From NCBI RefSeq assembly GCF_027497195.1, contig NZ_CP114905.1, positions 3,458,001 to 3,522,000 on the forward strand: 64,000 nucleotides of DNA. Direction: 5' to 3'. The notes below the pieces were generated by a model. It made no database searches, was not told the DNA's origin, and saw nothing but the letters and a program-made list of their open reading frames with translations. Source of the stretch: Streptomyces sp. WMMC500 (GTDB lineage: Bacteria > Actinomycetota > Actinomycetes > Streptomycetales > Streptomycetaceae). This document shows positions 8,961-23,056 of this stretch, one piece after another. A program made the position numbers and the translations under genes. Within the stretch, counting starts at the first letter, position 1. Every line of letters begins with the position of its first letter.

Positions 8961-10400
8961 TCACGTGGCCGCGGGAACCGGCAGCGGGCGGCCCTCCAGT
9001 GCCGCCGCCATCACCTCCGGGAACAGCTCCGGTGTGCAGGCGAACGCGGGCGCGCCGAGGGCGGCGAGCGCGGCGGCGTGATCGCGGTCGTACGCGGGCG
9101 CGCCCTCGTCGGAGAGCGCGAGCAGCGCGACGAACCGGACGCCGGACGCCTGCATCGCGGCGACCCGCTTCAGCATCTCCCGGCGTATGCCGCCCTCGTA
9201 CAGGTCGCTGATGAGCACGACCACGGTGTCCGCGGGGCGGGTGATGCGCTGCTGGCAGTACGCGAGCGCCCTGTTGATGTCCGTACCGCCGCCGAGCTGG
9301 GTGCCGAAGAGCACGTCGACGGGGTCGCTGAGCTGGTCGGTGAGGTCCACGACGGCGGTGTCGAAGGCGACGAGGCGGGTGGCGAGGGAGCGCATGGAGG
9401 CGAGGACGGCGCCGAAGACGGAGGCGTAGACGACGGAGGCGGCCATGGAGCCGGACTGGTCGATGGCGAGGACGACCTCCTTGCGGACGGAGCGGGCGGC
9501 GCGCGCGTAACCGACGAGGCGCTCGGGGACGACGGTGCGGTGCTCGGGGACGTAGTGCTTGAGGTTGGCGCGGATGGTGCGGTCCCAGTCGATGTCGCGG
9601 TGCCGGGGCCGCTGCACGCGGGCGGCGCGGTCGAGGGCGCCGGTGAGGGTGGCGCGGGTGCGGGCGGCGAGCTTGCGCTCCAGGTCGTCGGTGACCTGGC
9701 GGACGACGGTGCGGGCGGTCTCGCGGGCCTCGTCGGGCATGGCCTTGGCGAGGGAGAGCAGCGTGCCGACGAGGTGCACGTCGGGCTCGACCGCGGCGAG
9801 CACCTCGGGCTCCAGGAGGAGCGAGGCGATGCCGAGCCGGTCGATGGCGTCGCGCTGCATGACCTGGACGACGGGGGTCGGGAAGTACGTCCGCACGTCA
9901 CCGAGCCACCGGGCCACCTGCGGCGCGGACCCCCCGAGCCCGGCCTGCCGCCGGCTGCCGCGCCCGGACTGGTCGGGCCCGGGCCCGCCGTAGAGAGCGG
10001 ACAGCACGCGGTCCATGCCCGCGTCGTCCCCGCCCAGCGCGGCCCCGGTCCCGTCCCCGCCCCCTTCGCCCCCGAGGACCAGCCGCCACCGCCGAAGCCG
10101 CTCCCCTCCGGGGGCGGCGGGTGCGGGTGCGCCCTGCGCGGGGTCGAGGACGGAAGCGGCGGGTGCGGGGGCGGAGTCGGCAGGGGCGGGGGTGAGGTCG
10201 ACGGGGTCGGCGGGTGCGGAGTCGGCGTCGGCGGGGACGGAGTCAGCCCGGGCGGGTGCGGAGACCGAGTCGGCAGGTGCGGAGACGGCGTCGGCGGGGG
10301 TGGGCACGCGGGGCTCCTTGGGTGGGGAGGGGGGTCCGGGCGGCGAACCCGCGGCGGGGTTGGGCCCGTTGAGATCGGCGGGGTCGGGGTGTCGGGTCAC
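8961..10400 (-). CDS. VWA-domain protein of a MoxR/VWA locus
   Basis: 479 residues. The N-terminal 95 residues are a low-complexity repeat of Ala-Pro-Ala-Asp-Ser units. A helical segment follows, then a VWA (CoxE-like) domain at about 305-465 with an intact MIDAS start, DQSGSMAASVVYAS (near residue 311), and the later metal-site elements FGTQLGGGTDIN and VVVLISDLYEGG. Such proteins typically pair with MoxR AAA+ ATPases, with the VWA domain coordinating a divalent metal and binding a partner. The start is GTG 10400 with GGAGGAGGGA upstream; it overlaps the DUF5682 stop by four bases (GTGA), a clear sign of translational coupling. Last gene of the minus-strand half of the locus. Confidence 0.9.
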   Translation of the reverse strand: MTRHPDPADLNGPNPAAGSPPGPPSPPKEPRVPTPADAVSAPADSVSAPARADSVPADADSAPADPVDLTPAPADSAPAPAASVLDPAQGAPAPAAPGGERLRRWRLVLGGEGGGDGTGAALGGDDAGMDRVLSALYGGPGPDQSGRGSRRQAGLGGSAPQVARWLGDVRTYFPTPVVQVMQRDAIDRLGIASLLLEPEVLAAVEPDVHLVGTLLSLAKAMPDEARETARTVVRQVTDDLERKLAARTRATLTGALDRAARVQRPRHRDIDWDRTIRANLKHYVPEHRTVVPERLVGYARAARSVRKEVVLAIDQSGSMAASVVYASVFGAVLASMRSLATRLVAFDTAVVDLTDQLSDPVDVLFGTQLGGGTDINRALAYCQQRITRPADTVVVLISDLYEGGIRREMLKRVAAMQASGVRFVALLALSDEGAPAYDRDHAAALAALGAPAFACTPELFPEVMAAALEGRPLPVPAAT

Positions 10401-13306
10401 GGTTGTCCCTCCTCCGTGCCGAGCAGGGCGCGGAGGGTGGGCAGCACCGCGGCGGCGCGGGCGGCGTCGATCTCGTCGGCGAAGCCGGGAAGGCCCTCCG
10501 ACTCCGCCGGGCCCGCCGCGGAGGCGCCCCGGCGTACCAGCTCGCCGAGGGCGCGCCGGGCCCCCGGCTCGTACTCGGCGAACGTCCGCCGCAGCAGCGG
10601 CAGCACGTCCGTGAAGGCGTCGCCGGACAGCCCGGTCAGCCAGCCGTCGACGAGCGCGAGCAGCCGCTCGTCGTGGACGAGGAGCATGCCGCCGTCGCCG
10701 CCGAGGAAGCCCTCGACCCACACGGCGGCGTCCGCGGGCGGCACGGCGTGCGACAGGGCCAGGCCCATGACCCGCTCCGCCTCGGCGGCCGGCATCCGGC
10801 CCTCGTCGAGGAGCAGCCGCACGGCCCGGCCCCGGATGAGCCCGGGTACGGCGTCCCGGCTCCCGAGCACCCGCAACGCACCGGCCCACCGCCCCCGCAC
10901 CGAACCGGCGTCGCCCGGAGCCGCACCGCCGCGGCGGCGGGGCCCGGCACTGCCCTCCTCGGACCGGCCGGCCTCCCCGCGCCCGCCGTCATCCGCGGCG
11001 GCATCCTCGGACCTTGCGTCGCCGGCACCCGCCCCGGCCGCCGCGGCGGCATCCTGCCCGGGCTGCGCCGGGTCTTCATCGACCCCCGTGTCCGTGGCGG
11101 GCGCGCCCGGGATCCGCCCACGGACCCCACCGCCCTCGGCGCCGCGACGTCCGTGACCGTCCACCGGCGCACCGGGCGTCGCCGCGCCGCCCTCGCTCGC
11201 GGCGTCCGGCTGGTCCGCCCCCGGCGGTGAGGCGTCCAGCAGGGCCACCGCGCCGTGCACCGCGTCGACGTGCGTGCGCATCTCCTGTGCGCCGTCCGCG
11301 TCGAGCCCCACGCACGCGCCCGGAAGGCCGACGAAGATCCGGTCGGCCAGGCCCGTGGCGACGTCCGCGAGCGCCGTGGTCTGCGTGCCGCGCACGTCGC
11401 CGTAGCGGACCGAACGGGCCAGCGCCGGGAGGGCCTGGGCCAGGTGGCCGACGTCCGTGTCGAGCGCGGCCCGGTCGGCGAGCGCCCGCATGGCGACCGG
11501 CAGGGCGTCGGTCAGCTCGGCGAGCAGGCACTGCTCGGCCAGCGCCGTCACCTCCGCCAGCGAACCGGCCTGCGCCGCCTCGTACTCGGCCTTCGCGGTG
11601 GCCGCCGCGACCACCGTCGTGCCCCAGAGCGCCGCCTCCACCACCCGTACGGACAGATCCGGCTCCCACCGCAGGCTCCACGTCTCGCGGAACGTGCCGG
11701 TGCTCGCCCGGGACGCCGCGGGCACGCCCCAGTCGACGCCGAGCAGCCGCAGCCGGTGCAGCAGGCGGCTGCGCCCCGCGTCGGTCTCCTTGCGCAGGTC
11801 GAGCTGGAGCTCGCGCTCCTCGGCCGCCGGCTTGAGCCGCAACGCCCGCTGCGTACGCGCCAGATCGCGCTGCAGCGGCACGGCGGGCGCCGACTCCGGC
11901 ACCTCGCCGAGCGCGTCGCCCACGACGAGCCGGTCGGCGACGAGCGCCAGCGGCACTTCGGAGCCGTCGCACATCACGGCCCGTACGGCATCCAGCGTCT
12001 CGGCGAGCCCGGCGAGCGGGCGGCCCCGCATCGCGGCCAGCGCGGTGGTGAGCCGCACGGCCTCGATGACGTGCGCCGACGAGACGGTCCTGCCCTCGGC
12101 GCGCAGCAGGTCGGCGACCTTGATCAACCAGCGCTCGACGGGCCGGTCCTGCACCTCGAAGAGATGCGCGTACCAGCCCGGAGAGTCGATACCCGCGCCG
12201 TAACCACTCCGCCGGGCCAGCCGCCGGTGCGTCCACGGCACCCACGCCACCTCGGTCCTGACCTTGGGCAGGCCCTTGAGCAGCCGGCGGTCGGCGGTGA
12301 CCGTGGTGCGTTCCCGCAGCGCGGGCACGTGCCACGCGCCGCAGACCACGGCGACCCGCCCGTCGGCCTCGCGCCGCGCCTCACGCAGCCGCAGCCGCAT
12401 GTGCGCTTCGCGCACCAGGTCGCGGTCGTGGCCGCCGTCGCCGTACCGCTCGCGCAGCGCGCCCATCGCCTCCCCCAGCGCGACGAACGGCGCGGCGACG
12501 TCACCGCCGGTGCCGGGCGGGCCGGCCGTCCCGCCCGCGGCGGGCTCGGCCCCGCGCGGCATGCGGTGCTCGACCGCGTCCTCCCACCACCTCTCCGGGT
12601 CGTCGTAACCGGCGGCCCCGGCGAGGACCGCGAGCGGATCGATGCGCAGTGCCTCGGGGTCGAGCGCCGCCCGCTCCTCTCCCCCGGCCGAGCCTGCGTC
12701 AGTGTCTGCATCCGTGTCTGCGTCAGCATCTGGGTCTGCGTCTGCGGTGCCGGGCGTCCCCTCCTCCGCCCCCGGCCCGCCCGGGGCCGGTCGGCCCGCC
12801 TCGGCCATCGCGAGGGTGTGGGCGGCGGGGAGGTCGATGAAGCGGACCGGGACGCCGTGGCCCAGCGCCCAGCGGATCGCGACCCACTCCGGCGAGAAGT
12901 GCGCCAGCGGCCAGAACCCCGCCCGCGCGGGCTCGTCCACGGCGTGGGCCAGCAGCGCGACGGGCGGCCGCATGTCCTCCTCGCCGGCCAGGCCGACGAT
13001 CGCGTCCGCCTCCGGCGGGCCCTCGACGAGCACGACCCGGGGCCGGTACGCGTCCAGCGCCGCCGCCACCCCGCGCGCGGAGCCCGGGCCGTGGTGCCGC
13101 ACGCCGAGCAGCAACGGCTCGACGGCCGGCGCCCCCGCCGCGGCGCCCCGCCGCCCCTCCTCCTCACCGACCACGACCCGCTCCCCCTCCACGACCCCGG
13201 CTCTCCCGCCCACGCGCTCCGCCCCTCCTCCGGCCGCGCCTTCTCCTCTTTCCTTTACGTCCCGCGCCCCCACGGCCCCTCCGGCTTCCCGTTCCGCCGC
13301 CCGCAC
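10397..13306 (-). CDS. DUF5682-family protein
   Basis: Up to 969 residues. The conserved part starts near residue 67 (LLLGVRHHGPGSARGVAAAL, then RPRVVLVEGPPEADAIVGL), followed by WPLAHFSPEWVAIRWAL and, near 318, RVAVVCGAWHVPALRER. This order (His-containing strand, EGP motif, late G-x-W-H motif) resembles TraB/GumN or erythromycin-esterase folds; that is my inference, and no biochemical role is known to me. An Asp/Ala/Thr repeat lies at DNA 12685-12760 and a second Ala-rich linker precedes the C-terminal helical part. The start is uncertain: GTG 13306 has a weak ribosome site; GTG 13213 follows GGAGGAGG and is a good alternative. It sits between the MoxR and VWA genes. Confidence 0.88.
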   Translation of the reverse strand: MRAAEREAGGAVGARDVKERGEGAAGGGAERVGGRAGVVEGERVVVGEEEGRRGAAAGAPAVEPLLLGVRHHGPGSARGVAAALDAYRPRVVLVEGPPEADAIVGLAGEEDMRPPVALLAHAVDEPARAGFWPLAHFSPEWVAIRWALGHGVPVRFIDLPAAHTLAMAEAGRPAPGGPGAEEGTPGTADADPDADADTDADTDAGSAGGEERAALDPEALRIDPLAVLAGAAGYDDPERWWEDAVEHRMPRGAEPAAGGTAGPPGTGGDVAAPFVALGEAMGALRERYGDGGHDRDLVREAHMRLRLREARREADGRVAVVCGAWHVPALRERTTVTADRRLLKGLPKVRTEVAWVPWTHRRLARRSGYGAGIDSPGWYAHLFEVQDRPVERWLIKVADLLRAEGRTVSSAHVIEAVRLTTALAAMRGRPLAGLAETLDAVRAVMCDGSEVPLALVADRLVVGDALGEVPESAPAVPLQRDLARTQRALRLKPAAEERELQLDLRKETDAGRSRLLHRLRLLGVDWGVPAASRASTGTFRETWSLRWEPDLSVRVVEAALWGTTVVAAATAKAEYEAAQAGSLAEVTALAEQCLLAELTDALPVAMRALADRAALDTDVGHLAQALPALARSVRYGDVRGTQTTALADVATGLADRIFVGLPGACVGLDADGAQEMRTHVDAVHGAVALLDASPPGADQPDAASEGGAATPGAPVDGHGRRGAEGGGVRGRIPGAPATDTGVDEDPAQPGQDAAAAAGAGAGDARSEDAAADDGGRGEAGRSEEGSAGPRRRGGAAPGDAGSVRGRWAGALRVLGSRDAVPGLIRGRAVRLLLDEGRMPAAEAERVMGLALSHAVPPADAAVWVEGFLGGDGGMLLVHDERLLALVDGWLTGLSGDAFTDVLPLLRRTFAEYEPGARRALGELVRRGASAAGPAESEGLPGFADEIDAARAAAVLPTLRALLGTEEGQP

Positions 13307-13334
13307 CCCGCTGTCCCCGCCGGCCCGGGGCCGG

Positions 13335-14507
13335 TCACGCCGTGATCTCGCGGCACGCGCGGTAGAGGTCCTTCCAGCCGTCGCGCTCGCGCACGACGGT
13401 CTCCAGATACTCCTGCCACACCACGCCGTCGGCCGCCGGATCGCGGACCACCGCGCTCTGGATGCCCGCCGCCACGTCGCTCGCGCGCAGCACCCCGTCG
13501 CCGAAGTGCGCCGCCAGCGCCAGGCCGCCGGTGACCACGGATATCGCCTCCGCCGTCGACAGCGTCCCGGACGGGGACTTCACCTTCGTCCGGCCGTCGG
13601 CCGTCTCCCCGTCGCGCAGCTCGCGGAAGACCGTGACGACCCGGCGGATCTCGTCGACCGCCTCCGGCACCGGCGGGAGCCGGAGCGAGGCGCCGATCTG
13701 CGCGACGCGCTGCGTGACGATGCCGACCTCGTCCTCGGCGGACGCGGGCAGCGGCAGCACCACCGTGTTGAAGCGGCGGCGCAGGGCACTCGACAGCTCG
13801 TTGATCCCGCGGTCGCGGTCGTTGGCCGTCGCGATGACGTTGAACCCCCGGACCGCCTGGACCTCTTCGCCGAGTTCGGCGATCGGCAGGGTCTTCTCCG
13901 ACAGGATCGTGATGAGCGAGTCCTGCACGTCGGCCGGGATACGGGTCAGCTCCTCGACCCGCGCCGTCATGCCCTCCGCCATCGCCCGCATCACCGGGCT
14001 GGGCACCAGCGCCTCCCGGCTGGGTCCTGCCGCGAGCAACTGCGCGTAGTTCCACCCGTAGCGGATCGCCTCCTCCGGCGTGCCCGCCGTCCCCTGCACC
14101 AGCAGCGTGGAATCGCCGCTGACGGCGGCGGCCAGGTGCTCCGAGACCCAGGTCTTCGCGGTGCCGGGGACGCCGAGGAGCAGCAGCGCCCGGTCCGTCG
14201 CCAGCGTCGCGACCGCGACCTCCACGATCCGGCGCGGGCCGACGTACTTCGGCGTGACGACCGTGCCGTCCGGGAGCGTGCCGCCCAGCAGATACGTGGA
14301 CACCGCCCACGGCGACAGCCGCCAGCGCGGCGGCCGGGGACGCTCGTCCGCGGCGGCGAGGGCCGCCAGTTCATGCGCGAAGGCGTCCTCGGCGTGCGGC
14401 CGCAGCGCGGTGTCCCCGGCCGCGGACTCCCCGGCCGCGGACTCCGCGGACGGCCCCGCCTCGCCGCCGTCCCCGATGGCCGCGCCTGCCCCTGTCGTGG
14501 TCGTCAT
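13335..14507 (-). CDS. MoxR-type AAA+ ATPase
   Basis: 390 residues from ATG 14507, which follows a strong GAGGAGGGG site (the frame is open to 14594). The AAA+ core has a MoxR/ChlI-type Walker A, LLLLGVPGTAKTWVSEHLA (about 111-119), Walker B region ARVEELTRIPADVQDSLI (near 178), sensor-1 FNVIATANDRDRGINEL and the arginine-finger block ALRRRFN (about 240-247). In Walker B the usual Asp-Glu is Glu-Glu, a conservative but unusual change. MoxR ATPases act as chaperone-like remodelling machines together with VWA proteins. First gene of the minus-strand set MoxR, DUF5682, VWA; divergent from the SWIM gene across 153 bases. Confidence 0.92.
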   Translation of the reverse strand: MTTTTGAGAAIGDGGEAGPSAESAAGESAAGDTALRPHAEDAFAHELAALAAADERPRPPRWRLSPWAVSTYLLGGTLPDGTVVTPKYVGPRRIVEVAVATLATDRALLLLGVPGTAKTWVSEHLAAAVSGDSTLLVQGTAGTPEEAIRYGWNYAQLLAAGPSREALVPSPVMRAMAEGMTARVEELTRIPADVQDSLITILSEKTLPIAELGEEVQAVRGFNVIATANDRDRGINELSSALRRRFNTVVLPLPASAEDEVGIVTQRVAQIGASLRLPPVPEAVDEIRRVVTVFRELRDGETADGRTKVKSPSGTLSTAEAISVVTGGLALAAHFGDGVLRASDVAAGIQSAVVRDPAADGVVWQEYLETVVRERDGWKDLYRACREITA

Positions 14508-14660
14508 CGTCCCCTCCTCGCCGACTCGGTCGCAGCCGCCGCCCGCTGTCGCCGCGGTGACTGCGGAACCCACCTTGCCGCACGGCACTGACACCGTCCC
14601 CGAGCCTGTGGATATCGCAGGTCGGAGCCGTTGTCAGTGGCGGCCCGTAGCGTCGTGGGC

Positions 14661-16118
14661 ATGGAGGGGCAGAGCGAGCGGTGGACCGTGGACCAGGTGT
14701 GGGGGCTGGCGCCTGACGCCTCGTCACGCGCGGCGGGCGGCAAGCTCGCCGCGGCCGGGCCGTGGGCGGAGTCGGGGGCCGCGGGCGACGCGGTGTGGGG
14801 GCTGTGCCGCGGCAGCGGGAGCAGGCCGTATCAGACGGTGGTGGATCTGCAGGGTCCGGCGTACAAGTGCAGTTGCCCGAGCCGGAAGTTCCCGTGCAAG
14901 CACGCGCTGGGGCTGCTGCTGCGCTGGGCGGGAGGCGACGTTCCCGAGTCGCCGCGGGAGGCGTCCCGGGAGAAGGGGGCCGGCGAGGGGGTTCCGGAGT
15001 GGGCCGCCGAGTGGCTGGCGAGCCGCCGGGAGAAGGCGGAGCGGAAGGCCGCCGGGGAGCCGGCGGCGGAGCGGGCCCCGGATCCGGCGGCGGCGGCCGA
15101 GGCCCGGCGCCGTGCGGAGCAGCGGCGGCAGCGGATCGCCGCGGGCGCCGCGGAGTTGGAGCAGCGGCTGACGGACCTGCTGCGCGACGGGCTGGCGACG
15201 GCGCCGCGGGGTGCGGTGTGGGAGGAGACGGCGGCGCGGATGGTCGACGCGCAGGCGCCCGGGCTGGCGGCGCGGGTGCGCGAGTTGGGGGTGCTGCCGG
15301 CCTCGGGACCCGGGTGGCCGGCGCGGCTGCTCGCCGAGTGCAGCCTGATACACCTGCTGGACCAGGGCTTTCTGCGGCTGGACGAGCTGCCCGAGCCGCT
15401 GGCGGCCACCGTCCGCACGCGGGTGGGCCTCACGGTCGACGCCGCGGGGCTGCTGCGCGGCGGCACGCTGCGCGACGACTGGCTGGTGCTGGCCCAGGAG
15501 GACGCCGACGACGGCAAGTTGGTCACGCGCCGCATCTGGCTGCACGGCGCCCGTTCGCAGCGGATGGCGCTCCTGCTGGCGTACGGGGCGGCGGGCCGGG
15601 CGCCGGAGCAGTCGCTGCCGACGGGGCTGGCGCTGGACGCGGAGCTGGCGTATTACCCGGGCGCCCACCCGCTGCGCGCGGCGCTGGGCGCGGTCCACGC
15701 GGGCCCGCGGACCCCGCCGGGGGGCGAGCGGGCCGTGCCGCCGGGGGCCGGGGTCGCGGAGGTGGTCGCGGCGTACGGGGCGGCGCTGGCGGCGGACCCG
15801 TGGCTGGAGGGGATACCGGCGGTCCTCACGGACGTGGTCCCCGTGCCGGAAGAGGGTGACGAGGGCTGGCAGTTGGCCGAGCGGGCGGGCGACCGCGCGC
15901 TGCCGCTCCACCCGGCCGCGGGGCGCGGTCCGGGCGTGTGGCAGCTCCTCGCGGTGTCGGGGGGCGGCCCGGTCACGGTCTTCGGCGAGTTCGGCCACGC
16001 GGGCTTCCGCCCGCTGACGACGTGGTCCGCGGGCGCGGCCGTCCCGCTGACGGGCGCCGCCGCGGCCATGGCGGGGGCGCCGATCGCGGCGCCGAAGGGC
16101 GGGGGCACATGGCACTGA
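14661..16118 (+). CDS. SWIM zinc-finger protein
   Basis: 485 residues. The SWIM signature C-x-C-x(n)-C-x-H is intact at about residues 68-81 (YKCSCPSRKFPCKHALGLLL). SWIM domains bind zinc and are usually DNA- or protein-interaction modules. A charged, Arg/Glu/Ala-rich helical linker follows (about 100-170), then a long globular part with no motif I can name. I chose ATG 14661 (MEGQSERWTVDQVW) over the open TTG at 14631. There is no clear ribosome site and a TAGCGT box lies at 14648-14653, so the mRNA may be leaderless. It is divergent from the MoxR gene and followed by the DUF5691 gene, 55 bases later. Confidence 0.88.
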   Translation: MEGQSERWTVDQVWGLAPDASSRAAGGKLAAAGPWAESGAAGDAVWGLCRGSGSRPYQTVVDLQGPAYKCSCPSRKFPCKHALGLLLRWAGGDVPESPREASREKGAGEGVPEWAAEWLASRREKAERKAAGEPAAERAPDPAAAAEARRRAEQRRQRIAAGAAELEQRLTDLLRDGLATAPRGAVWEETAARMVDAQAPGLAARVRELGVLPASGPGWPARLLAECSLIHLLDQGFLRLDELPEPLAATVRTRVGLTVDAAGLLRGGTLRDDWLVLAQEDADDGKLVTRRIWLHGARSQRMALLLAYGAAGRAPEQSLPTGLALDAELAYYPGAHPLRAALGAVHAGPRTPPGGERAVPPGAGVAEVVAAYGAALAADPWLEGIPAVLTDVVPVPEEGDEGWQLAERAGDRALPLHPAAGRGPGVWQLLAVSGGGPVTVFGEFGHAGFRPLTTWSAGAAVPLTGAAAAMAGAPIAAPKGGGTWH

Positions 16119-16173
16119 CCACGCACACGAGCGTGGCCGGCGGCGCCGGGGTGACGGGTGAGGAGGGGGCCGT

Positions 16174-17856
16174 ATGACGGTTGAGGTGCGGGGCTTCGCG
16201 GCGGACGCCGCCGGCGGCTGGGGGGACCTGGTGGCCGCGGCGGTGGTGGGGGCCGGGCGGCGGGGAGTCGACGAGGGGGCGCTGCTCGACGCCGCCGCCG
16301 CGGCCACCGTGCGGCGGCGGGCCGGGATCGTGCCCGGCCCGGCGCGGCGGCTGCCCGAGCCCGCCGGGCACGATCCGCGGCCCCGGCTGCCCGCCGCCGC
16401 CCGGCGGCGGCTCGCCGCGCTGCTCGCGGACCGCTCCGGCACCGGCGGCGGCAGCAGGCGCGGGCCCGCCCCCGACCTCGCCGAGCTGATTCCGGAGTGG
16501 CTGCGGCAGGCCGTCGAGTGCGGCTACCAGGCGCCGCCCGAGTTGCTGCCCGCGCTGCTCGACGCCGCCCGGGCCCGTATCGACCTGCGGCCCCACGCGC
16601 TGGCCCTCGCCGGGCCGCGCGGGCTGTGGCTCGCCGAGCGCGCGCCGCAGTGGGCGCCGCTGCTGCGCGACGGCGCGGCCGGGCCCGCGCTGCCGGACCC
16701 GCGCGACGCGGACGCCGTCCGCGCCCTGTGGGAGGAGGGGCCCCGGACCGGCGGGCCGGGGACAGGCCAGGTGCGCGGCGCGCTCTTCGCCGAGGTGCGC
16801 CGCGCCGATCCCGCGGGCGCCGTCGAGCTGCTGGTCTCGACGTGGTCCGCCGAGAAGGCAGAGGACCGGCTCGCGTTCGTGGAGCTGCTGCGCACGGGGC
16901 TGTCCCTCGCCGACGAGCCGTTCCTGGAAGACGCCCTGGCCGACCGCAGCCGCGGGGTACGGGCCGCGGCGGCCGAACTCCTCGCCGGGCTCCCCGGCTC
17001 CGCGCTGGCGGGGCGGATGGCCGCGCGGGTGCGGTCGCTGGTGGTGCTCGACCGCAGCGAGGAGCCACCGGTGATCGCGGTGGAGGCGCCGTACGAGTGC
17101 GACGCCGCCATGCAGCGGGACGGGGTGGTGGCCACGCCGCCGGCGGGCATGGGCGAACGGTCGTGGTGGTTCGGGCAGTTGGTCGCCGCGGCGCCGCTCG
17201 CCCTATGGCAGGCGGTCTTCGACGGCCGGACGCCGGAGGAGATCGTCGCGCTGCCCGTCGCCGACGGCTGGCGGTCCGACCTGCTCGCCGCCTGGAGCCG
17301 CGCCGCCGCCCGGCAGCACGACTCGGCCTGGGCCCGCGCCCTCCTCGGCGCCGCCCCGGCCTCGTCCCCGAACGAGCCGCCCGCCTTCACCGCCGGCCCG
17401 GCCGGCCCGTCGTCCGCCCCCGGCAGCGGCGAGCACATACCCGGGCGGGACCCCGCGCGGCTGCTCACCGCGCTGCCCGAGGGGGAACGGGCCGCGTGGG
17501 TCGCGGAGTTCATCTCCGCGCACGGGCTGTCCGAGGCGTTCCGCCTCCTCGGCGCCTGCGCCGTGCCGTGGCCGGAGGAACTGGGCCGGGCCGTGGTCGA
17601 CGCCCTGGAGATCGCGCGGGACGGCGGCAGTTATCCGTGGAGCTTCAGCGGCGTGATGGGCCTCGCGGAGCGTTGCCTCGACCCCTCGTACGCCGTCCGC
17701 CTCGAACCGCTCGCCGCGATGCACGAGGAGGCGGAGGAGAGTTCGCCCGGCGCCGCCGGGTACTGGTCGGAGGCGTTCCAGCGGCTGGTGGCCACGCTGC
17801 GGATACGCGCCGCGATGCGCGACGAGCTGACCACGCCCGCCGCCCTGCGGCCCTGA
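16174..17856 (+). CDS. DUF5691-family protein with HEAT-like repeats
   Basis: 560 residues from ATG 16174 with GAGGAGGGGG upstream. The sequence is all-helical in look; the stretch around DPAGAVELLVSTWSAEKAED, then DALADRSRGVRAAAAELLAG, resembles HEAT/ARM repeats used as protein scaffolds. No catalytic motif is visible. The family is found beside SWIM, MoxR and VWA genes in actinobacteria, so the product probably belongs to the same machine. It forms a two-gene unit with the SWIM gene and is convergent with icmB. Confidence 0.85.
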   Translation: MTVEVRGFAADAAGGWGDLVAAAVVGAGRRGVDEGALLDAAAAATVRRRAGIVPGPARRLPEPAGHDPRPRLPAAARRRLAALLADRSGTGGGSRRGPAPDLAELIPEWLRQAVECGYQAPPELLPALLDAARARIDLRPHALALAGPRGLWLAERAPQWAPLLRDGAAGPALPDPRDADAVRALWEEGPRTGGPGTGQVRGALFAEVRRADPAGAVELLVSTWSAEKAEDRLAFVELLRTGLSLADEPFLEDALADRSRGVRAAAAELLAGLPGSALAGRMAARVRSLVVLDRSEEPPVIAVEAPYECDAAMQRDGVVATPPAGMGERSWWFGQLVAAAPLALWQAVFDGRTPEEIVALPVADGWRSDLLAAWSRAAARQHDSAWARALLGAAPASSPNEPPAFTAGPAGPSSAPGSGEHIPGRDPARLLTALPEGERAAWVAEFISAHGLSEAFRLLGACAVPWPEELGRAVVDALEIARDGGSYPWSFSGVMGLAERCLDPSYAVRLEPLAAMHEEAEESSPGAAGYWSEAFQRLVATLRIRAAMRDELTTPAALRP

Positions 17857-20505: not shown

Positions 20506-22941
20506 CTACAGCTTTTCCACCGGCGCGTACCGCAGGAGCAGCTTCTTCGTCCGCCCGCCGTCGCCGAAGTCGATCGTCGCCTGCGCGTTCGCCCCCGAGC
20601 CGGACACCTCCACGACCGTCCCCATCCCGAACTGGTCGTGCGTCACCCGGTCCCCCACCGACAGCGCGATCACCGGCCGCTCCGTCGCCCGCCCGGTGGC
20701 GAAGCCCGAAGGGCCCTGGCGCGTACGGGCCGCGGACGACGTGGACGACGCCAGCGCCGCCGCCGCGGACTCCATCGGCGACCGTCCCCCCCCGCCGCCC
20801 CGTGTGGCCGAGGCGCCGGTGCGCCGCCACTCCAGATACGCCGGCGGGATCTCGTCCAGGAAGCGCGACGGCGGGTTGTACGACGGCTGGCCCCACGAGC
20901 TGCGCATCACCGAGCGCGCCAGATACAGCCGCTCCTGCGCGCGCGTGATGCCCACGTACGCCAGCCGGCGCTCCTCCTCCAGCTCCTTGACGTCGCCGAG
21001 GGCCCGCATGTGCGGGAAGACGCCGTCCTCCATGCCGGTGAGGAACACCACCGGGAACTCCAGGCCCTTGGCGGTGTGCAGCGTCATCAGTGTGATGACG
21101 CCGGAGCCGTCCGTCTCCTCCTCCGGGATCTCGTCGCTGTCGGCGACCAGCGCGACGCGCTCCAGGAAGTCGGCCAGCGTCCCCGGGCCCTCCTCGCCGC
21201 GGTCCTGCTCGAACTCCAGGGCCACGGCGGCCAGCTCCTGGAGGTTCTCGATACGGGTCTCGTCCTGCGGGTCGGTCGACGCCTGCAACTCGGCGAGATA
21301 GCCGGTCTGCTCCAGCACCGCCTCCAGCACCGTGGCCGGCCCGGCGCCGGACTCCACGACCGTGCGCAGCTCCTCCATCAGCGTGTTGAACCGCTTGACG
21401 GCGTTGACCGAGCGGGACGCCATCCCGTACGCCTCGTCCACGCGCACCAGCGCCTGCGGGAAGGAGATCCGCTCGCGCTGCGCGAGCGCCTCGATCATCG
21501 CCTCGGCGCGGTCGCCGATGCCGCGCTTGGGCACGTTCATGATGCGGCGCAGCGGTACGGCGTCCTCGGGGTTGGCGAGCACGCGCAGGTACGCGAGGAC
21601 GTCGCGGACCTCCCGGCGCTCGTAGAAGCGGACGCCGCCGACGACCTTGTACGGCAGGCCGACGCGGATGAAGACCTCCTCGAAGACACGGGACTGCGCG
21701 TTCGTCCGGTAGAAGACGGCGACGTCGCCGGCGCGCGCGTCGCCCGCGTCCGAGAGCCGGTCGATCTCGTCGGCGACGAACTGCGCCTCGTCGTGCTCGG
21801 TGTCGGCGACGTAGCCGACGATGCGGGCGCCGGCGCCGGCTTCGGTCCACAGGTTCTTGGGACGGCGGGAGGCGTTGCGCTCGATGACGGCGTTGGCGGC
21901 GTTGAGGATCGTCTGCGTGGAGCGGTAGTTCTGCTCCAGCAGGATCGTGCGCGCCTCGGGGTAGTCCTCTTCGAACTGCAGGATGTTGCGGATGGTGGCG
22001 CCGCGGAAGGCGTAGATGGACTGGTCGGCGTCGCCGACGACGCACAGCTCGGCGGGGCCGTCGGGGGCCGCCGCACGCTCCGCGCCGCCGTCACCCGGCT
22101 CCGCCTCCGCCTCCGCCGCCCCGGCCTCGGCCGGCGGGCCGACCAGCTCGCGGACCAGCATGTACTGCGCGCGGTTCGTGTCCTGGTACTCGTCGACCAG
22201 CACGTGCCGGAACCGGCGGCGGTAGTGCTCGGCGACGTCCGGGAACGCCTGCAGCAGGTTCACGGTCGTCATGATCAGGTCGTCGAAGTCCAGCGCGTTG
22301 GCCTCGCGCAGCCGCGACTGGTAGAGCCCGTACGCCTCGGCGAGCGTCTTCTCGTAGCCGTCGACGGCCTGGGCGGCCCAGCTCTCCTCGTCGATCAGCT
22401 CGTTCTTCAGGCTGGAGACCTTCGCGCTGAACGCCTTCGGCGGATAGCGCTTCGGGTCGAGGTCCAGGTCCCGGCAGACCAGGGCCATGAGCCGGCGCGA
22501 GTCCGCGGCGTCGTAGATCGAGAACGAGGACGTGAAGCCCAGCTTCTTCGACTCGCGGCGCAGGATGCGCACGCAGGCGCTGTGGAAGGTGGAGACCCAC
22601 ATGGCGTTCGCCCGCGCGCCGACGAGTTCCTCGACGCGCTCCTTCATCTCCCCCGCCGCCTTGTTCGTGAACGTGATGGCGAGGATCTGGCCGGGGTGGG
22701 CCCGGCGCCTGGCGAGCAGGTAGGCGATCCGGTGGGTCAGCACGCGGGTCTTGCCGGAGCCGGCGCCGGCGACGATCAGCAGGGGCGAGCCGGTGTGCTC
22801 CACGGCGGCGCGCTGCTGCTCGTTCAGCCCGGTGAGCAGCGCTTCCGGGTCCGTGACGGGGCGGGGCGCGCCATCGCGGTAGTACGGCTCGGGGGTGCTC
22901 GCGGCGAAGGCGAGATGGCTGTCGTCGAAGAGGCTGCTCAT
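20506..22941 (-). CDS. pcrA: ATP-dependent DNA helicase UvrD/PcrA
   Basis: 811 residues, a complete SF1A helicase. The Q motif and Walker A are LNEQQRAAVEHTGSPLLIV and AGAGSGKT (58-65); further motifs are FTNKAAGEMKERV (Ia), LVDEYQDTNRAQYML (II), GDADQSIYAFRGA (III), LEQNYRSTQTILNAAN (IV), LMTLHTAKGLEFPVVFL (V) and YVGITRAQERLYLAR (VI). The C-terminus DRVTHDQFGMGTVVEV is the Tudor-like domain that PcrA uses to contact RNA polymerase. The enzyme unwinds DNA in repair and in clearing replication-transcription conflicts. ATG 22941. Convergent with the M23 gene, divergent from the NlpC/P60 gene. Confidence 0.97.
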   Translation of the reverse strand: MSSLFDDSHLAFAASTPEPYYRDGAPRPVTDPEALLTGLNEQQRAAVEHTGSPLLIVAGAGSGKTRVLTHRIAYLLARRRAHPGQILAITFTNKAAGEMKERVEELVGARANAMWVSTFHSACVRILRRESKKLGFTSSFSIYDAADSRRLMALVCRDLDLDPKRYPPKAFSAKVSSLKNELIDEESWAAQAVDGYEKTLAEAYGLYQSRLREANALDFDDLIMTTVNLLQAFPDVAEHYRRRFRHVLVDEYQDTNRAQYMLVRELVGPPAEAGAAEAEAEPGDGGAERAAAPDGPAELCVVGDADQSIYAFRGATIRNILQFEEDYPEARTILLEQNYRSTQTILNAANAVIERNASRRPKNLWTEAGAGARIVGYVADTEHDEAQFVADEIDRLSDAGDARAGDVAVFYRTNAQSRVFEEVFIRVGLPYKVVGGVRFYERREVRDVLAYLRVLANPEDAVPLRRIMNVPKRGIGDRAEAMIEALAQRERISFPQALVRVDEAYGMASRSVNAVKRFNTLMEELRTVVESGAGPATVLEAVLEQTGYLAELQASTDPQDETRIENLQELAAVALEFEQDRGEEGPGTLADFLERVALVADSDEIPEEETDGSGVITLMTLHTAKGLEFPVVFLTGMEDGVFPHMRALGDVKELEEERRLAYVGITRAQERLYLARSVMRSSWGQPSYNPPSRFLDEIPPAYLEWRRTGASATRGGGGGRSPMESAAAALASSTSSAARTRQGPSGFATGRATERPVIALSVGDRVTHDQFGMGTVVEVSGSGANAQATIDFGDGGRTKKLLLRYAPVEKL

Positions 22942-23056
22942 CGTCCACAGAGTCTAGGGCGCGGCACCGACAACCCACTCCCGTAGCCCGCTTTCCGCCC
23001 CCGCCGCCGCATCGGCAGTCCCCCGCCGCCGCCCCGGCGGGATGTCCGGATTCGCC

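Follow-up and report, generated by a model that had tools for sequence, protein, structure and literature searches.

What common task could a MoxR ATPase, a VWA protein, a DUF5682 protein, a SWIM zinc-finger protein and a DUF5691 protein perform when their genes lie side by side? We asked this of a locus in Streptomyces sp. WMMC500, contained in a stretch of 64,000 nucleotides of contig NZ_CP114905.1 (positions 3,458,001 to 3,522,000) that is referred to here as the window. On the minus strand, the locus encodes a CoxE-type VWA protein of 479 amino acids (aa) (8961-10400; Pfam VWA_CoxE, 4.6e-60), a DUF5682 protein related to Escherichia coli YehM in a 969-codon frame (10397-13306; PF18934, 4.4e-289), and a YehL-type MoxR AAA+ ATPase of 390 aa (13335-14507; AAA_5, 5.5e-37). 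The plus strand encodes the SWIM protein of 485 aa (14661-16118; PF04434, 1.1e-6) and a HEAT-like DUF5691 protein of 560 aa (16174-17856; PF18944, 1.1e-154), whose HEAT match itself fell under the Pfam cut-off (0.12). The DUF5682 and VWA frames overlap by four bases (GTGA), and 153 bases (14508-14660) separate the ATGs of MoxR and SWIM; direct reading together with Pfam thus reproduced the layout drawn in a first-pass annotation of this DNA. The answer that we favor, by a little more than even confidence, is a single DNA-damage-induced, ATP-driven machine in which MoxR and VWA would remodel or feed DUF5682, a predicted TraB/TIKI hydrolase, while SWIM and DUF5691 would recognize DNA or a client.

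The five genes form one conserved unit, and their grouping is not due to chance. Named genomes were scanned with a DUF5682 alignment alone and the best 80 of 573 confirmed matches were taken, a sample biased to near relatives that, by record titles, covers Actinomycetota, Cyanobacteria, Bacteroidota, Planctomycetota, Verrucomicrobiota, Chloroflexota, and Thiofilum. Genes at these loci were assigned with home-made profiles, with a full flank defined as at least 9 kb on each side. All five genes were present at 62 of the 63 loci with a full flank, and at 69 loci irrespective of flank. The first-pass annotation had treated the genes as one locus and named scattering in most genomes as the observation that would speak against this; such scattering was not seen at the loci examined. 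At 59 of the 69 five-gene loci, the genes ran in the order SWIM-DUF5691-MoxR-DUF5682-VWA on one strand; SWIM and DUF5691 were fused in one open frame in nine of these 59 (9/80 named loci), and VWA lay 3-6 kb downstream in three. Three other five-gene loci, from Lentzea, had VWA about 4 kb off on the opposite strand. The divergent layout seen in the window occurred at the remaining 7 of 69 and, since it was found only in Streptomycetaceae among the loci examined, is probably a derived rearrangement. One or more of the five genes were missing at 11 of the 80 loci, 10 of which had a short flank; in Mastigocoleus (L076), the sole full-flank exception, DUF5691 was not found anywhere in the assembly. 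At a separate cyanobacterial locus, from Pseudanabaena (L098), the other genes were absent or did not adjoin DUF5682.

The same association was visible across 197 genomes of the phylum, of which 18 had DUF5682 and 16 had a DUF5691 match above cut-off; in all 16, DUF5691 and a DUF5682 gene were no more than 5 kb apart. Three further DUF5691 matches, below cut-off, fell in genomes without DUF5682, and the two DUF5682 genomes without DUF5691 (G120 and G192) have other operon types. A search around the loci for a sixth conserved neighbor turned up little beyond synteny confined to particular lineages and enzymes of common families.

When such a unit might act is suggested by its control region. 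The RecA-NDp promoter has a consensus that we take to be TTGTCRGTG-N8-TANNNT, and its regulator is presumably PafBC. Such promoters precede many Actinomycetales DNA-damage genes, one of which was induced five-fold by UV (PMC5087735). An exact promoter of this type, TTGTCAGTG-N8-TAGCGT (14631-14653, plus), is located 7 bases before the ATG of SWIM, while exact matches arose in none of 100 shuffles of the window. Facing MoxR is a near-consensus element, GTGTCAGTG-N8-CAAGGT (14572-14594, minus), whose -10 departs from the consensus in having C, not T, as its first base. Aligning the control region of the window with those of 15 Streptomycetaceae loci (a sixteenth, L130, was omitted as it had no readable SWIM motif) revealed two facing copies of TTGTCAGTG, and the MoxR-side form TGTCAGTG-N8-CANNNT was kept in 16 of 16 Streptomycetaceae loci.

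The exact motif preceded SWIM at 16 of 17 Streptomycetaceae loci, compared to 9 of 3400 random stretches from the same loci, and the core TGTCRG-N10-TANNNT did so at all 17. The -10 and the ATG were 7 bases apart in the window and at 15 of the 17 Streptomycetaceae loci; at the two others, the nearest ATG lay 2 and 6 bases away. Because of this short distance, the SWIM message is probably leaderless. Of five LexA-type box patterns sought before SWIM, four were found at 0/87 loci and the fifth at 2/87. Outside the family, the core motif preceded SWIM at 14 of 40 other named Actinomycetota (background, 8/8000), at none of 8 further survey loci and at none of 22 loci of other phyla, with a still looser motif at 19/40, 2/8, and 1/22, respectively. 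If PafBC is actinobacterial, the 0/22 is a fair negative control. The link to damage rests on the Actinomycetota loci, although the operon is also kept elsewhere.

Seventeen exact RecA-NDp sites were present in the genome and none in a backwards control, and 41 genomes of the genus had 11-44 sites each compared to 0-1 in the control. Ten of the frames downstream of the 16 other sites were run through Pfam, which identified RecA, a UvrD helicase, uracil-DNA glycosylase, O6-methylguanine methyltransferase, and a RecD2-HHH protein. The remaining frames were ribosomal S6, presumably the first gene of an ssb operon, two TnpB-type proteins, an EamA transporter, and one without a match. The window itself holds a UvrD/PcrA helicase gene (20506-22941, minus) with an exact site (22951-22973) ending 9 bases before its ATG.

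Six genomes of the genus, together with another actinobacterium (G192), supplied 10 paralogous DUF5682 loci. Exact sites also occurred at 7 of these 10, the exceptions being L047, L051, and L055; if a density of 0.06 sites per 20 kb is assumed, the probability of this by chance is ~2e-7. Behind six of the seven sites, a long frame started within 5-93 bases, not always that of the identified gene. At L054, the site (15661-15683, minus) is upstream of the operon, with no long frame starting within 150 bases. A second exact site was noted at L046 (15947-15969, minus), and no long frame was found downstream of it. One might argue that the promoter match is incidental and that the system serves general protein quality control, as the lack of the core motif at the 22 loci of other phyla would allow, but the near-fixed spacing in 16 of 17 Streptomycetaceae and the recurrence of the motif in paralogous operons of different layout make this very improbable. 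We infer instead that the unit may be induced by DNA damage, presumably via PafBC.

What the machine would do depends first on DUF5682. Its N-terminal part carries, all on the minus strand, a first GxxH motif, GVRHHGPGS (His71; 13079-13105), a predicted catalytic glutamate in VEGPPEA (Glu95; 13007-13027), a predicted conserved basic residue near the active site in REAHM (Arg299; 12398-12412), and a second GxxH motif, CGAWHVPA (His326; 12320-12343). The first-pass annotation had picked out VRHHGPGS, VEGPPEAD, and VCGAWHVPA, each of which is in the sequence. The TraB/TIKI pattern GxxH...E...R...GxxH was present in 86 of 86 aligned DUF5682 sequences (alignment A2), of which 67 rows were fetched by a pattern containing the second GxxH motif and 18 were not. 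Invariant positions in the 86 rows were G, R, and H of the first motif, the glutamate, R, E, and M of REAHM, and G and H of the second motif. Among survey loci picked by hidden Markov model, the second GxxH was present in 26 of 26, the first glycine of the pattern being lost in 4 of them.

The pattern is in register with that of a TraB alignment (A4), and the AlphaFold model (mean pLDDT, 83) suggests an N-terminal TraB/TIKI-like domain followed by a long helical repeat region. Foldseek matches in the PDB were dominated by helical repeats; a putative TraB/TIKI structure was the sole structural match of the N-domain among the matches listed, from which ChaN and EreA-like structures were absent, which is uninformative either way. 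A TraB profile scored 28.2 against DUF5682, above all 150 decoys, but with an hhalign probability of only 13%. An EreA profile gave no significant match, its best alignment touching the R-x-x-M motif in one comparison, and YbaP alone aligned only at the second GxxH. Sequence searches of the PDB returned no relative of DUF5682, no TraB structure with YbaP as the query, and not 7w5z with profile A4; the best 120 matches to an N-domain profile were all DUF5682 proteins. PrgY-type TraB (TIGR00261) was not found in sets of 21 and 121 genomes, which thus gave no sequence for comparison with chain 7w5z_E. The sole "TraB" match in 198 actinobacterial genomes (L146) lacked the motif and was not retained as a seed.

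DUF5682 thus shares with the TraB/TIKI/EreA/ChaN superfamily the GxxH...E...R...GxxH pattern with matching spacing, but differs in an extra His after the first GxxH, fusion to a long helical-repeat region, occurrence with MoxR and VWA, and a weak profile match. Motif and model point the same way as the TraB-like reading offered earlier, and we predict that the DUF5682 N-domain is a TraB/TIKI-type hydrolase, for which the profile scores are suggestive, not decisive.

The partners of DUF5682 also have conserved motifs. MoxR has a Walker A (14151-14174, minus), a Walker B with EE for DE (13941-13961, minus), a sensor, and an arginine finger (13770-13787, minus). Among 76 MoxR homologues, Walker A fitted GxPGxAK[ST] in all 76 (a narrower pattern ending in KT, in 43), and the sensor and the arginine finger were each present in 72. 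Walker B was EE in 76 of 76 and in E. coli YehL, and is possibly a mark of YehL-type MoxR. The VWA protein has the MIDAS elements DQSGSM (9444-9461), GGGTDI (9276-9293), and ISDL (9201-9212), all minus, of which the first two were present in 73 and 74 of 75 homologues, respectively. The SWIM motif, CSCPSRKFPCKH (14868-14903, plus), fits CxCx7CxH, as do 69 of 72 homologues. The best NCBIfam match of MoxR, MadB, was rejected at 39 bits against a cut-off of 475. With these motifs present and the genes linked, the MoxR-VWA pairing proposed from the first look at the sequence is well founded.

The pairs CoxD/CoxE, NorQ/NorD, RavA/ViaA, and CbbQ/CbbO likewise combine a MoxR AAA+ protein with a MIDAS-bearing CoxE-family VWA, but the window system has three further conserved partners, the uniform EE Walker B, and no recurring cofactor enzyme nearby. 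In the general scheme given in PMC7159879, VWA takes hold of a peptide and the client is remodelled by MoxR; the same paper describes several pairs of known function that mature or assemble enzymes. The window system could similarly be a maturation machine, with MoxR and VWA opening DUF5682 or another client for metal or cofactor entry, as CoxD/CoxE do for CO dehydrogenase; DUF5682 would then be client or scaffold, and the promoter would mark a repair enzyme being matured. The CoxE type of the VWA, the possible His/His/Glu site in DUF5682, and a yehM mutation that arose in copper-evolved E. coli (PMC12409786) are compatible with this. Apart from lineage-specific synteny, however, the operon has no recurring enzyme gene as a neighbor, and hence no dedicated client is seen; on balance, we consider maturation improbable.

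Comparison with relatives suggests which parts of the machine work together. E. coli K-12 yehL-yehM-yehP-yehQ encodes MoxR, DUF5682, VWA, and SWIM in that order, with a DUF4132 gene (yehI) upstream and a WGR gene (yehF) nearby, and YehL is a named MoxR subfamily (PMC3893208). The two loci share the MoxR-DUF5682-VWA order, the same families, and a SWIM gene (Pfam SWIM match of YehQ, 1.2e-7; window protein, 1.1e-6). They differ in that no DUF5691 match was found in the E. coli control, yehI and yehF lie upstream, and the DUF5682 proteins are ~26% identical. No RecA-NDp motif was found in 23 kb around yehLMPQ.

The ten paralogous loci represent three other operon types. Type B (six loci, L046-L051) has MoxR plus DUF5682 and VWA in one frame (6/6), and at the two scanned, L046 and L051, the operon opens with genes for a DUF4132 protein and for a protein of 1600-1700 aa that has no Pfam match. 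Type C (L052) has WGR-DUF4132, MoxR, DUF5682, VWA, and a gene with a 154-bit YehQ match and no Pfam match, while type D (L053-L055) has a long VWA protein, MoxR, and a long DUF5682. The MoxR/DUF5682/VWA core is therefore constant across types, whereas the recognition part seems to be exchanged: a DUF4132 protein replaces DUF5691 in the type B and C loci examined and in E. coli, together with WGR in type C. In PARP1, broken DNA is bound by WGR, and the recombination protein SWS1 contains a SWIM motif. The open frame common to DUF5682 and VWA in type B, and that common to SWIM and DUF5691 at 9 of the 80 named loci, make two sub-assemblies likely, {DUF5682, VWA} and {SWIM, DUF5691}, and suggest direct cooperation within each pair.

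The first-pass annotation had also offered a stress or conflict system. In outline, MoxR, VWA, and a third large protein do resemble the MoxR-vWA ternary conflict systems described in PMC7159879, and an anti-phage or self-killing role with DUF5682 as the effector is a conceivable reading. The third component here is DUF5682, however, and the five genes are fixed rather than having swapped effectors; WGR, DUF4132, TraB, and SWIM do not occur in the main text of that paper. MoxR matched bpMoxR below its cut-off (22.9 compared to 27 bits) and, in PADLOC, gave only weak IetA matches (E 0.012 and 0.028), while the other four proteins had no PADLOC match and VMAP, iSTAND, and beta-propeller domains were not found by Pfam in any of the five. 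DNA damage can trigger conflict systems, which counts in favor of such a role. Against it stand the DUF5691 matches in 115 of the 121 sampled genomes of the genus and the matches of yehLMPQ DNA to 5301 of 5426 complete E. coli genomes, which cover 80% or more of its length in 5162 of them. Relatives were carried by 35 of 72,556 plasmid records, none was confirmed among 66 pattern-matched stretches of viral contigs, and the chromosomal position near a sucC-like gene is stable in the window and, by eye, in eight named Streptomycetaceae loci. Due to the weak PADLOC matches, near-universal occurrence, few plasmids, lack of confirmed viral relatives, and conserved place, we regard a defense role as unlikely, indeed as a decidedly poor candidate. 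The conflict half of the earlier suggestion is thus disfavored, while the stress half becomes a specific DNA-damage prediction from the RecA-NDp promoter.

As the first-pass annotation had supposed, no defined function emerged: the open-access literature, with subscription papers mostly outside it, gave none for DUF5682, DUF5691, yehLMPQ, or YehL/MoxR-SWIM-vWA. A crosslinking paper on YehQ was discounted as biology, its match being an entrapment match.

From the intact MoxR and VWA motifs, the TraB-like domain on a helical scaffold, and the association of SWIM with DUF5691, we argue for an ATP-driven machine whose timing would be set by the damage promoter. Damage would turn on both transcripts, SWIM/DUF5691 would locate a damaged or stalled substrate, VWA would hold a peptide of the client, and MoxR would spend ATP to pull or reshape it, whereupon DUF5682 might cut the client or become switched on. 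Both the hydrolase activity and this order of action are inferred from sequence. A more speculative version, which we consider unlikely, is a bacterial counterpart of p97-SPRTN, in which SWIM/DUF5691 (or WGR/DUF4132) would find DNA-stuck proteins, MoxR/VWA would pull, and DUF5682 would cut as a TraB-type protease. The eukaryotic system likewise has an AAA+ motor, a hydrolase-like partner, a zinc finger, and a link to damage, but its proteins are unrelated and the window activity is predicted only. If true, this version would define a class of repair machines of which Streptomyces and its relatives have four variants and almost all E. coli have one. The damage-induced machine that we favor would, if right, extend the bacterial DNA-damage response by a class of ATP-driven hydrolase machines, one near-universal in E. 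coli and the genus yet without a function in the literature searched. Its promoter yields a specific, cheaply checked prediction, and the TraB-like site, named residues.

Further observations concern individual elements. DUF5682 is a single gene in the 8.6 Mb genome, and its start is ambiguous among several in-frame GTGs. Conservation sets in near residue 60 of the 969-codon frame and the true start is probably between 13114 and 13213; a database copy of 925 aa (P0001) would put it at 13174. In Rufibacter (L106), from another phylum, a protein similar to the sucC-like neighbor of the Streptomycetaceae locus is encoded 265 bases upstream of the operon. Lastly, the two TnpB-type (OrfB_IS605) frames start 6 bases behind exact RecA-NDp motifs at G000:C1:1820555-1820577 (L206) and 3882817-3882839 (L210), as if a TnpB-type transposon gene were wired to DNA damage.

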